From NCBI GenBank assembly GCA_937929825.1, contig CALFUV010000014.1:1-38856 (forward strand): a stretch of DNA of 38,856 nucleotides. The letters run 5' to 3'. Of this stretch, positions 5,081 through 17,854 are shown one piece after another. Each line of letters starts with the position of its first letter. The first letter of the stretch is position 1. The notes under the pieces were generated by a model. It ran no database searches. It was not told the origin of the DNA and worked only from the letters and a program-made list of their open reading frames with translations. This stretch comes from an uncultured Patescibacteria group bacterium. Its GTDB lineage: Bacteria > Patescibacteriota > Patescibacteriia > Veblenbacterales > UBA10138. The position numbers were made by a program, and so were the translations under genes.

Positions 5081-5157
5081 TGGTGCGCGCACCTGGACTT
5101 GAACCAGGGACCTTCACAATGTCAATGTGACGCTCTAACCAGCTGAGCTATGCGCGC
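5081..5157 (-). tRNA. tRNA-Val(GAC)
   Basis: GCGCGCATAGCTCAGCTGGTTAGAGCG TCACA TTGACAT TGTGA ...TTCAAGT...TGCGCGCACCA. Confidence 0.95.
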
Positions 5158-13969: not shown

Positions 13970-13984
13970 TATTTTAACAGTTAT

Positions 13985-14245
13985 TTATAAAAGACGTTTA
14001 GCGCGGATTAATGTCGCCGCGCGAAAGCTCTTGTGTTTTGAGCTCGTTGAAGGTAGAAATTTTACTTTTTAAATTTTTTAAAAAGTAAAAAAGTAGAGCC
14101 TTCCGGGGTGCGCCCGTTAAAGCGTTTTTATGAAGTGGATCCGATAATTTTGGATCAAGTAAGGTGGTACCTCCTGCAATTCGCAAAGTTGCGAAAACGG
14201 GACCTTACCTATCTCTGTTTAATGGAGTTAGGTTTTTATTTTTTT
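13985..14245 (+). promoter_or_regulatory. T-box-like leader upstream of valS
   Basis: CGGGGTGCGCCCGTTA, then T-box sequence GTAAGGTGGTACC (14159-14171) pairing with ACCTTAC (14202-14208); followed by hairpin ACCTATCTC/GAGTTAGGT (14207-14233, one mismatch) and a T-tract abutting the valS ATG. Stem I/specifier not resolved. Confidence 0.75.
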
Positions 14246-17182
14246 ATGAAAGAATTACCTAAGGCTTATTCACCTCAAAATTACGAATCAGGAATTTATA
14301 AACAATGGGAAGATTCTGGTTTTTTTAATCCTGATAATTTAAATTATCAGGGCGAGCCTTTTAGTATTAGTATGCCACCACCTAATGCTACCGGTATACT
14401 GCATTTGGGTCATGCTGTAATGCTGGCTATACAAGATTTAATGTCTCGTTATTGGCGTTTACGAGGTAGGCGTACCTTATGGTTACCGGGTGAGGATCAT
14501 GCTGCCATTGCTACACAAAATGTAGTGGAAAAAAAACTTTATAAAGAAGAAGGAAAAAATAGATTTGATTATGGACGTGAAGAATTTATGCATCGGGTTA
14601 ATGAATTTGTGAATAATTCACGCTCTACTATTAAAGATCAAATTAAAGCTATGGGAGCATCCTGTGATTGGTCGCGTGAGCGTTATACTTTAGATGAGGG
14701 ATTATCACGTGCTGTTAAAGAAGCATTTATTCGTATGTATAATGACGGCTTAATATATCGTGGTAAACGCATAGTTAATTGGTGTTATCGGTGCGGTACA
14801 ACTTTAGCCGATGACGAGGTTGAATATAAAGAACAAAAAACACCTTTTTATTATTTAAAGTACGGACCTATAATTATTGGTACAGCTAGACCGGAGACTA
14901 AGGTATTAGATAAGGTTATTATTGTTCATCCGGATGACGAGCGTTATAAAAAATATATTGGCACAAGTTTTGATGTGCCTTGGATAGATGGTATAGTACG
15001 TGCTCAAGTGGTGGCTGATAAAATAGCTAAGATAGAAACCGGTACTGGTGCCATGACTATAACACCAGCTCATAGTTTTGTGGATTTTGAATTAGCACAA
15101 AAATATGGTTTTGAAATAGTGGAAATAATAGGACCTGATGGTAAAATGACCCAAAATGCTGGTAAATTTGCTGGTCTTAATGTAAAAGAAGCACGTGTCG
15201 CGATTTTGGAAGAATTACAAAATAAAGGTTTGGTAGAAAGGATTGACAATGATTATATTCATAATCTTTCGGTGTGTTATCGTTGCGGTACGGCGGTGGA
15301 GCCATTGCCTTCTGAACAGTGGTTTGTGGCGGTAGATAAACCGTTTCGTCGCAGATTTTTTAAAAAAATTACCTTAAAAAAAATGGCGTTGGCGGCTGTT
15401 AAAGAGGAACGCATAAAAATTATACCAGAAAGATTTATTAAAGTTTATGAACACTGGATGAATAATTTGCATGATTGGTGTATTAGCAGACAAATTTGGT
15501 TTGGGCACAGAATTCCGGCTTGGCAGTGTCAGGACTGTAAGGAATGGCAAGTAATAGCTAGCAGGCCTACTAAAATAATTTTTAGTCGTCATGGTTTAAC
15601 TGATTGGAATAAAAAAGAACGTATTCAGGGTGATACCAATATACCCCTGGATGAATCAGAAATTGAATTAATTTATAAAAAGGCATATGAATTGAAAAAT
15701 AATGATATACAGGTAATAATTAGTTCTCCTTTAATGAGGGCTAGGCAAACAGCCAATATTTTTGCTGAAGTTATTAAGGCGCCGATTATAGTTGAAAAAA
15801 GAATTAAAGAGAGATATTATGGTACTTTTGAGGGAAAACTAGTTGCTGAATTAAAACAAGATCATCCTGATTATTATAAAAATAAATTATCTTACCATGT
15901 GGCTGAGGCTGAGAGCTATCAACAGATTAAGCAACGTTTAATACCTTGGCTTTCAGAGGTAGTTATTAAATTTCAAGGCCAGAAAGTATTGATAGTTACT
16001 CATAATGCTATTATGCGAACTTTAAAATGGATGATAGAAGGAGGTACAGAAAAAGAATTATCTGAATTTAAACCACGATTTGATGAACCCTTACAATATG
16101 AGCTTATTGGTAGTTGTAAAAAATGCGGGTCTTGGCGTATGAAACAAGACGAGGATACTTTGGATACTTGGTTTTCTTCTTCCTTATGGACATTTTCCAC
16201 GCTTGGTTGGCCCGGAAAAACCAAGGATTTATCTACTTATCATCCTACATCAGTCATGGAAACAGGTTATGATATATTATTTTTTTGGGTTGCACGTATG
16301 ATTTTAATGTCAGCTTATTGTTTAGGAGATATACCGTTCCGTACTGTTTATTTGCATGGTTTAGTACGGGATAAGCAAGGTAGAAAAATGAGCAAGTCTT
16401 TAGGTAATGGTATTGATCCTATAGAAATGATAGGTAAATATGGCGCTGATGCGTTAAGACTTTCTATGATAATAGGAGTTACACCGGGAAATGATTTTAG
16501 ACTTTATGACGAGAAGATCGCTGGTTATCGGAATTTTGTAAATAAACTTTGGAATATTGTACGCTTTGCCAATTTAACCACTGAATTGAAAGTAATGGAA
16601 GTCCCGCCAGAGCCAAAAACTTTGGCTGATAAATGGATTTTGTCCCGTTTTAGTAAAGTTGCCGATTTAGTAACCAAGAAAATTGAAAGTTATTCTTTTT
16701 CTGAAGCTGGTGAAACTTTATATGATTTTACTTGGCACGAGTTAGCAGATTGGTATTTGGAAATTACTAAAATAGAAGGCCGTAAGCAGGAAATATTATC
16801 CTATTTAATTAGTCAACTTTTAAAACTTTGGCATCCATTTATGCCCTTTGTTACCGAAGCTTTATGGCAAGAAACTTTTGGTAATCAAGCAGGATTGTTA
16901 ATAGTTCAATTATGGCCCAAAAATTTACCCGCTATTGATAATAAATCCGAAATTGAATTTACGTCAGTGCAGGATATAATAATATCATTGCGTAATTACC
17001 GAGCAGAAATAAAGCTTGATAAAAAAATAAAAGTTAAATTTTGTTTAGTAGGTAAAATATTAAATAAAAATGAAGAGATGATTATTTCTGATTTAAGAAC
17101 AGGAGCAGAATACGACAGTTCAATTGCAGAAAAATATTCTAAGAAAGTAGATTTTAAAGATTTTAATTTGTTAATAAGTTAA
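14246..17182 (+). CDS. valS: Valyl-tRNA synthetase with inserted histidine phosphatase domain
   Basis: PPPNATGILHLGHA (HIGH region), GRKMSKSLGNGIDP (KMSKS), QDEDTLDTWFSSSLW. Insert has RHGLTDW, SSPLMRARQTA, ERYYGTFEG, VTHNAIMR. Start moved from 14108 because that ORF extension reads through the leader. Confidence 0.95.
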   Translation: MKELPKAYSPQNYESGIYKQWEDSGFFNPDNLNYQGEPFSISMPPPNATGILHLGHAVMLAIQDLMSRYWRLRGRRTLWLPGEDHAAIATQNVVEKKLYKEEGKNRFDYGREEFMHRVNEFVNNSRSTIKDQIKAMGASCDWSRERYTLDEGLSRAVKEAFIRMYNDGLIYRGKRIVNWCYRCGTTLADDEVEYKEQKTPFYYLKYGPIIIGTARPETKVLDKVIIVHPDDERYKKYIGTSFDVPWIDGIVRAQVVADKIAKIETGTGAMTITPAHSFVDFELAQKYGFEIVEIIGPDGKMTQNAGKFAGLNVKEARVAILEELQNKGLVERIDNDYIHNLSVCYRCGTAVEPLPSEQWFVAVDKPFRRRFFKKITLKKMALAAVKEERIKIIPERFIKVYEHWMNNLHDWCISRQIWFGHRIPAWQCQDCKEWQVIASRPTKIIFSRHGLTDWNKKERIQGDTNIPLDESEIELIYKKAYELKNNDIQVIISSPLMRARQTANIFAEVIKAPIIVEKRIKERYYGTFEGKLVAELKQDHPDYYKNKLSYHVAEAESYQQIKQRLIPWLSEVVIKFQGQKVLIVTHNAIMRTLKWMIEGGTEKELSEFKPRFDEPLQYELIGSCKKCGSWRMKQDEDTLDTWFSSSLWTFSTLGWPGKTKDLSTYHPTSVMETGYDILFFWVARMILMSAYCLGDIPFRTVYLHGLVRDKQGRKMSKSLGNGIDPIEMIGKYGADALRLSMIIGVTPGNDFRLYDEKIAGYRNFVNKLWNIVRFANLTTELKVMEVPPEPKTLADKWILSRFSKVADLVTKKIESYSFSEAGETLYDFTWHELADWYLEITKIEGRKQEILSYLISQLLKLWHPFMPFVTEALWQETFGNQAGLLIVQLWPKNLPAIDNKSEIEFTSVQDIIISLRNYRAEIKLDKKIKVKFCLVGKILNKNEEMIISDLRTGAEYDSSIAEKYSKKVDFKDFNLLIS
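15571..16105 (+). other. Histidine phosphatase (phosphoglycerate-mutase-like) domain inserted in ValRS
   Basis: TKIIFSRHGLTDWNKKERIQGDTNIPLDE...IISSPLMRARQTANIFAE...IKERYYGTFEGK...VLIVTHNAIMRTLKWMIEGG between CQDC and CKKC knuckles. Confidence 0.92.
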
Positions 17183-17185
17183 TTT

Positions 17186-17854
17186 ATGTTAGAAAATAAA
17201 AAATATAGAGAATATGTTATTGAAGGGCAGTTTGAAAAAATAGAAATCGCTCATAAATTAATAGATGAAGTTATGCAAAGAAGCATTAAGATTGGCGAAG
17301 GTCAAAATGCTAATGTTTATTTTTCAGTTGATAAAAAAAGACAGGATTTTTGTATTAAACATTTAAAAGAAACTCCAGGCAGGCGTCATTATCAAAGTAT
17401 AGATTGGGAAATGAGATTGCAAGATAAAGCCCGTAAGCTTGGTGTAAAAGTTCCGCAGCCAGTATTAGCATTAATTACCGAAGATGATAACGCTTTTATG
17501 GTAATGGAAACTGTTAAGGGCAAGACTTTAGAGGAAATAATGTCTGGGTTAGCCAGTTTACCGAATACTTACAACGCTGATGAATTTTGGAATAAAATGG
17601 AAAAGATGATCAGTAAGATGCATGAAAATAATTTATATCATCGCGACTTACATCTTGGGAATATTATGATTGATTTTCAATCAGGCGAGCCGGTATTGAT
17701 TGATTTTGGTTGGGCAGCTTATGTACCGGGCGGTGATGATCCATATAGAGAAATTAATACCAATATTAATCATCAGGAGGATTTTCCTAATGATGATGTT
17801 CAGTTAAAGAATTGTAAACGTCAATTTATGGGATACTTGACAAGATTTGGTTAA
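17186..17854 (+). CDS. Small eukaryotic-like/RIO-like protein kinase
   Basis: IGEGQNANVYFSVD, FCIKHLKE, YHRDLHLGNIMID, VLIDFGWA; starts 3 nt after the valS stop. Confidence 0.85.
   Translation: MLENKKYREYVIEGQFEKIEIAHKLIDEVMQRSIKIGEGQNANVYFSVDKKRQDFCIKHLKETPGRRHYQSIDWEMRLQDKARKLGVKVPQPVLALITEDDNAFMVMETVKGKTLEEIMSGLASLPNTYNADEFWNKMEKMISKMHENNLYHRDLHLGNIMIDFQSGEPVLIDFGWAAYVPGGDDPYREINTNINHQEDFPNDDVQLKNCKRQFMGYLTRFG

Follow-up and report, generated by a model that had tools for sequence, protein, structure and literature searches.

Aminoacyl-tRNA synthetases that carry extra domains are already known. They include the isoleucyl-tRNA synthetase (IleRS) of NCBIfam NF040702, a class Ia synthetase to which a GNAT domain has been joined as an additional enzyme domain. 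Histidine phosphatases, too, occur joined to an RNA-related enzyme; in the mycobacterial RNase HI–acid phosphatase fusion (PRK07238 / Rv2228c type) the phosphatase is terminally fused to RNase H. Other histidine phosphatases, such as PhoE/YhfR (1H2E) and the phosphoserine phosphatase of H. thermophilus (4IJ5/4IJ6), are free-standing.

Here we describe a valyl-tRNA synthetase (ValRS) with a histidine phosphatase nested inside it. It is encoded on a stretch of 38,856 nucleotides (contig CALFUV010000014.1; hereafter the window) from an uncultured Patescibacteria group bacterium, whose genome is 0.80 Mb in size and 98% complete. The window protein has all the elements, the fold and the above-cut-off score of bacterial ValRS (TIGR00422 / NF004349; T. 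thermophilus 1GAX), but it contains about 180 additional residues, which form an enzyme domain within the second zinc knuckle. With PhoE/YhfR and the H. thermophilus phosphoserine phosphatase this domain has in common the whole catalytic set and the fold (TM 0.84–0.88 on the query), at 28–29% identity; unlike these it is embedded in a synthetase. It also differs from the mycobacterial fusion in being a nested insertion, and from the NF040702 IleRS, whose extra domain is an acetyltransferase and not a phosphatase; here the likeness lies in the presence of an added domain. None of the open-licence papers searched reports a histidine phosphatase as part of ValRS or IleRS, nor was the pattern described below found in them, namely an intact phosphatase repeatedly captured in these two enzymes, as many as three times in one protein, and exchanged at fixed sites among close relatives.

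The valS gene and its inserted domain

The features of the locus, all on the + strand, are as follows.

13976–14209, +: probable T-box leader of valS, with a AAGGTGGTACC antiterminator element
14246–17182, +: valS, valyl-tRNA synthetase, 978 aa; ATG start, stop at 17182, open frame throughout
15527–15538, +: CQDC, first half of the zinc knuckle, from the sequence; aligned to T. thermophilus ValRS 417–425
15563–16105, +: inserted histidine-phosphatase (branch 1) domain; Pfam core 15575–16069
15587–15595, +: RHG motif; R at 15587, His at 15590–15592 the presumed nucleophile (phosphohistidine)
15737–15739, +: second catalytic Arg (SSPLMR), conserved in 91 of 91 embedded domains
15809–15811, +: catalytic acid Glu (KERYYGTFEG), E or D in 90 of 91 embedded domains
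16001–16003, +: second catalytic His (VTHNA), conserved in 90 of 91 embedded domains
16115–16126, +: CKKC, second half of the zinc knuckle, from the sequence; aligned from T. thermophilus ValRS 436
17186–17854, +: small gene with a protein-kinase fold (Bud32/RIO/APH-like), 3 nt downstream of valS; a family-limited neighbour

Judged by its sequence, the window protein is a complete ValRS, and it is predicted to charge tRNA-Val. The HIGH-type motif (HLGH), the KMSKS motif, the editing elements (TARPET, D280) and the anticodon-binding region are present, as seen in the sequence, in invariant alignment columns and in a match to Pfam Anticodon_1. The protein exceeds the cut-offs of both NCBIfam models (NF004349, 909 against 704; TIGR00422, 874 against 612), and these matches come in two pieces with Pfam His_Phos_1 between them. 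T. thermophilus ValRS (1gax) likewise aligns in two blocks, with the break at its residues 425/436, and is the best solved structural match of the modelled whole protein. AlphaFold, run on 32 ValRS sequences, gives the whole window ValRS, insert included, a mean pLDDT of 91.1 and a pTM of 0.84. The mechanical open reading frame over valS begins further upstream, at a GTG at 14108.

An earlier note, made from the DNA alone, had proposed that a histidine phosphatase with intact catalytic residues lies inside an unbroken ValRS frame. Each part of this proposal holds: the frame is open from the ATG at 14246 to the stop at 17182, and Pfam (His_Phos_1, E 2.8e-38, residues 444–608), matches to sequences of solved structure and AlphaFold with Foldseek concur on the domain. 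Its placement between CQDC and CKKC was correct within a few codons; the phosphatase domain therefore splits the second zinc knuckle. The profile and AlphaFold checks that the note had suggested were run and matched the histidine phosphatase fold, so that the failure to match which it named as refuting was not seen. The note had also ventured some roles, which have the standing of guesses: the insert might act on a by-product of aminoacylation, on the phosphate of a tRNA or nucleotide, or on ValRS that has itself been phosphorylated. The catalytic set is complete (R 15587, H 15590, R 15737, E 15809, H 16001). The best solved sequence relatives of the insert are PhoE/YhfR (1ebb/1h2e, 1.5e-15) and the phosphoserine phosphatase 4ij5. 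Modelled by itself, the insert has a pLDDT of 97.2, and Foldseek matches the model to 4ij6 (TM 0.86–0.88), 1h2e (0.84) and also phosphoglycerate mutases, with a probability of 1.00. On the strength of sequence and model, it is assigned to branch 1 of the histidine phosphatase superfamily, of the PhoE / phosphoserine-phosphatase type, and is predicted to be active.

A particular substrate does not follow from this assignment. The insert falls short of the equivalog cut-offs for the alpha-ribazole phosphatase CobC (TIGR03162; 104 bits against 163), the phosphoserine phosphatase PspA (73 against 350), GpmB (71 against 261) and the phosphoglycerate mutase dPGM (75 against 225). Because every equivalog cut-off tried was missed, the substrates of known phosphatases cannot be transferred to it.

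The catalytic residues are retained in embedded domains that are otherwise only about 20–45% identical. Among 91 such domains, collected with phosphatase-derived queries so that decayed copies may be under-represented, the nucleophile His and the second Arg are present in all 91, the second His and the acidic residue (E/D) in 90 each, and the first Arg in 88. Three ValRS are without the first Arg, which is replaced by Val in one clade. The region from FEGK to GES, which shapes substrate choice, varies strongly between subtypes, and this argues against one shared small-molecule substrate. Short free-standing phosphatase genes also occur in several genomes; these resemble one (locus L269, G003:C6:19094-19573) that has SHG for RHG and groups with a VHG subtype embedded in other ValRS.

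Inserts in the synthetases of related bacteria

The earlier note had also called for a search of Patescibacterial ValRS for the insertion, and had named a chimeric assembly as an outcome that would undo its reading. The insertion recurs in independent genomes and the chimera outcome is absent. By the author's tally of long-frame matches in 286 genomes of the Patescibacteria class to which the window belongs, a phosphatase is present in ValRS in about 26 and at the equivalent site of IleRS in about 45; the two inserts are found together in one genome (4 expected, p 0.06). Further ValRS cases occur in other groups of the phylum, and named carriers are found among the Veblen-, Komeili- and Kerfeldbacteria. 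In none of 46 control genomes (mostly Bacillota, the rest being one Daviesbacteria genome and members of other phyla) does a ValRS match extend across an insert; the phosphatase matches listed for these controls are separate short frames, except for one frame of 452 aa. An assembly chimera or sequencing artefact is thus ruled out by recurrence, and we give it practically no weight: the frame is unbroken, and identical junctions are seen in many independent genomes and classes, including the named assemblies L102–L105. The existence of a ValRS without an insert in the same genus (G007, 78% identical to that of the window outside the insert), together with the independent carriers, means that the window case is due neither to chance nor to chimerism.

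Insertions of the phosphatase into the middle of a protein were observed in ValRS and IleRS alone. Histidine-phosphatase fusions are also found elsewhere in the phylum, with a DedA-like membrane protein, an MFS transporter, a 2-hydroxyacid dehydrogenase and a PEP-synthase-like protein (L294, L295, L296 and L293, respectively).

The insertion sites differ in what they hold. Within the family of eight genomes to which the window belongs, valS contains the phosphatase in the window genome (G000) and in G005; an ASCH-like domain occupies the same site in G001, G002 and G004, G005 has both domains, and G003, G006 and G007 have no large insert there. The ASCH-like occupant scores 15.6 bits (E 0.027) against Pfam PF04266, below the gathering score of 21.2, and is therefore called ASCH-like only. 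The loci with it at this ValRS site are L005, L006, L007, L256, L257, L259 and L260, and L265 has it at a second site. A second ValRS site, between LGWP and FHPT, is occupied by one phosphatase in G043 (L292) and by an ASCH-like domain in G172. Multiple occupants are also found: phosphatases in tandem (loci L044 and L220), with two in the G330 ValRS, two phosphatase copies in the IleRS of Candidatus Peribacter, and three phosphatase domains at three different sites in the IleRS of G511 (L298:2667-7382; E 2e-45, 1e-32 and 3e-32). The ValRS of G499 (L218:1833-5660) has a serine-hydrolase and a phosphatase at the zinc-knuckle site, while its editing region holds a HAD-type domain.

A tree built from 112 phosphatase domains pairs the window domain with that of G005 as sisters (SH-aLRT 96), and both lie within a supported ValRS clade (98) drawn from four families; several further ValRS and IleRS clades are well supported and stand apart from it. 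When mapped onto a tree of ValRS bodies from which the inserts were left out, the phosphatase subtypes are scattered, and an AU test rejects the window's subtype as a single clade (p 7e-118). One ancient insertion followed by vertical inheritance is incompatible with this tree. Closely related synthetases may have different occupants: G060 (phosphatase) and G019 (ASCH-like) have ValRS that are 81% identical, while for G000 (phosphatase) and G007 (none) the figure is 78%. Losses and transfer of whole valS genes also contribute to the pattern, and both trees come from quick searches and have long branches in places; for these reasons no exact numbers of gains are claimed.

The inserts are thus exchangeable modules (phosphatases in one to three copies, ASCH-like domains and, rarely, HAD or serine-hydrolase domains) at a few fixed sites of ValRS and IleRS, and the case in the earlier note is one of these recurrent inserts in Patescibacteria. 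We regard this architecture, and the exchange of modules in the two synthetases, as close to certain.

The kinase gene and the leader of valS

The gene that follows valS at once in the window encodes a kinase-fold protein, raising the idea of a reversible switch in which the insert would undo a phosphorylation, by this kinase, of ValRS or of its tRNA pathway. The same gene follows the phosphatase-bearing valS of G005. In G004, however, it comes after a valS that has no phosphatase, and it does not adjoin the other phosphatase-bearing valS genes examined. As it is found after valS in three of the eight family genomes (the window, G004 and G005), one of them phosphatase-less, a kinase–phosphatase operon was rejected as a general explanation. 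The insert has no conserved or general partner in the kinase, and a switch of this kind is improbable. In G007 (L183:2604-3452) and G001 (L202:2601-3551), genes of unknown family stand directly after valS, at the place of the kinase.

Upstream, the probable T-box leader matches Rfam RF00230 with 40 bits (E 2e-7), below the gathering score of 93, and has a fold z-score of -5.0. A GGTGGTACC element is also found upstream of several related valS genes. A possible GTC specifier of the leader lies at 14013–14015 and matches the tRNA-Val GAC gene at 5081–5157.

Possible roles of the inserted phosphatase

The explanation we consider most likely, and hold tentatively, is that the insert is an active phosphatase which acts in cis, its target being a phosphorylated group on the synthetase or close by. 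This reading is favoured because the phosphatase has been captured repeatedly by both ValRS and IleRS, at multiple sites and in multiple copies, and has retained its catalytic residues. A compact, catalytically intact domain of this type would work through a phosphohistidine intermediate, in place at the synthetase. The phosphorylated group would either belong to the synthetase or be delivered to it; candidates are the end of a tRNA, an inhibitor that is phosphorylated or a phosphoramidate, and a residue of the enzyme itself. Dephosphorylation would then protect charging with valine or isoleucine, and the rapid exchange of modules is more in keeping with a challenge that changes than with a metabolic step that stays the same. 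A bolder version sees the two Patescibacterial synthetases as platforms for fast-exchanging protective modules, a built-in counter-toxin layer in which nested phosphatases (and ASCH-like domains) mend tRNA ends that have become phosphorylated or break down phosphorylated inhibitors of the synthetases; this we think rather unlikely. PADLOC matched no defence model to the synthetase or to the phosphatase domain, and its kinase matches were generic.

The main rival, which is a serious possibility, is that a housekeeping enzyme is parked in the synthetase: a general small-molecule phosphatase would sit in a permissive surface loop, uncoupled from charging, with ValRS and IleRS serving as tolerant and well-expressed sites. 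Several observations agree with this. The ValRS insert is the sole histidine phosphatase of the window genome and the only one in 14 of 25 genomes with a phosphatase in ValRS; separate phosphatases are somewhat rarer in such genomes (11 of 25, against 20 of 29; Fisher p 0.10), the ValRS and IleRS inserts seldom occur together, and the embedded subtypes are diverse. Histidine phosphatases are moreover fused to DedA, MFS and other proteins, so that fusion alone implies no role in charging. Nevertheless, 9 of 30 related genomes that have no synthetase insert also have no histidine phosphatase, which is therefore not essential. Against parking also stand the finding of mid-protein insertions in ValRS and IleRS alone and the occupation of the same two sites by an ASCH-like domain, and the presence of two or three copies in one synthetase is hard to account for in this way.

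Two further explanations concern the synthetase reaction and its architecture. The insert might hydrolyse AMP or another leaving product of aminoacylation and so pull the reaction forward. It lies close to the reaction that releases AMP, and histidine phosphatases can have broad specificity; this benefit should however hold for every synthetase, whereas the insertions were seen in ValRS and IleRS alone, and nucleotide-specific features were not recognised in the insert. Removal of a by-product is thus very improbable. We judge it just as doubtful that the insert is a structural or tRNA-contacting spacer without catalysis. An ASCH-like fold can take the same site and three ValRS have lost the first Arg, but such a spacer would not explain why five catalytic positions are kept near-perfectly over 91 highly diverged domains.

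Whichever group is acted upon, the recurrent gain, loss and swapping of inserts suggests an accessory function in protein synthesis that has not been described. The preferred reading, a phosphatase active in cis, can be tested with no more than one recombinant protein and a point mutant of it. The ValRS and IleRS inserts also provide a natural example of insertion sites tolerated by essential enzymes. Their recurrent capture points to a chemistry of phosphate, so far unrecognised, that surrounds the charging of tRNAs with valine and isoleucine in a very large group of bacteria.
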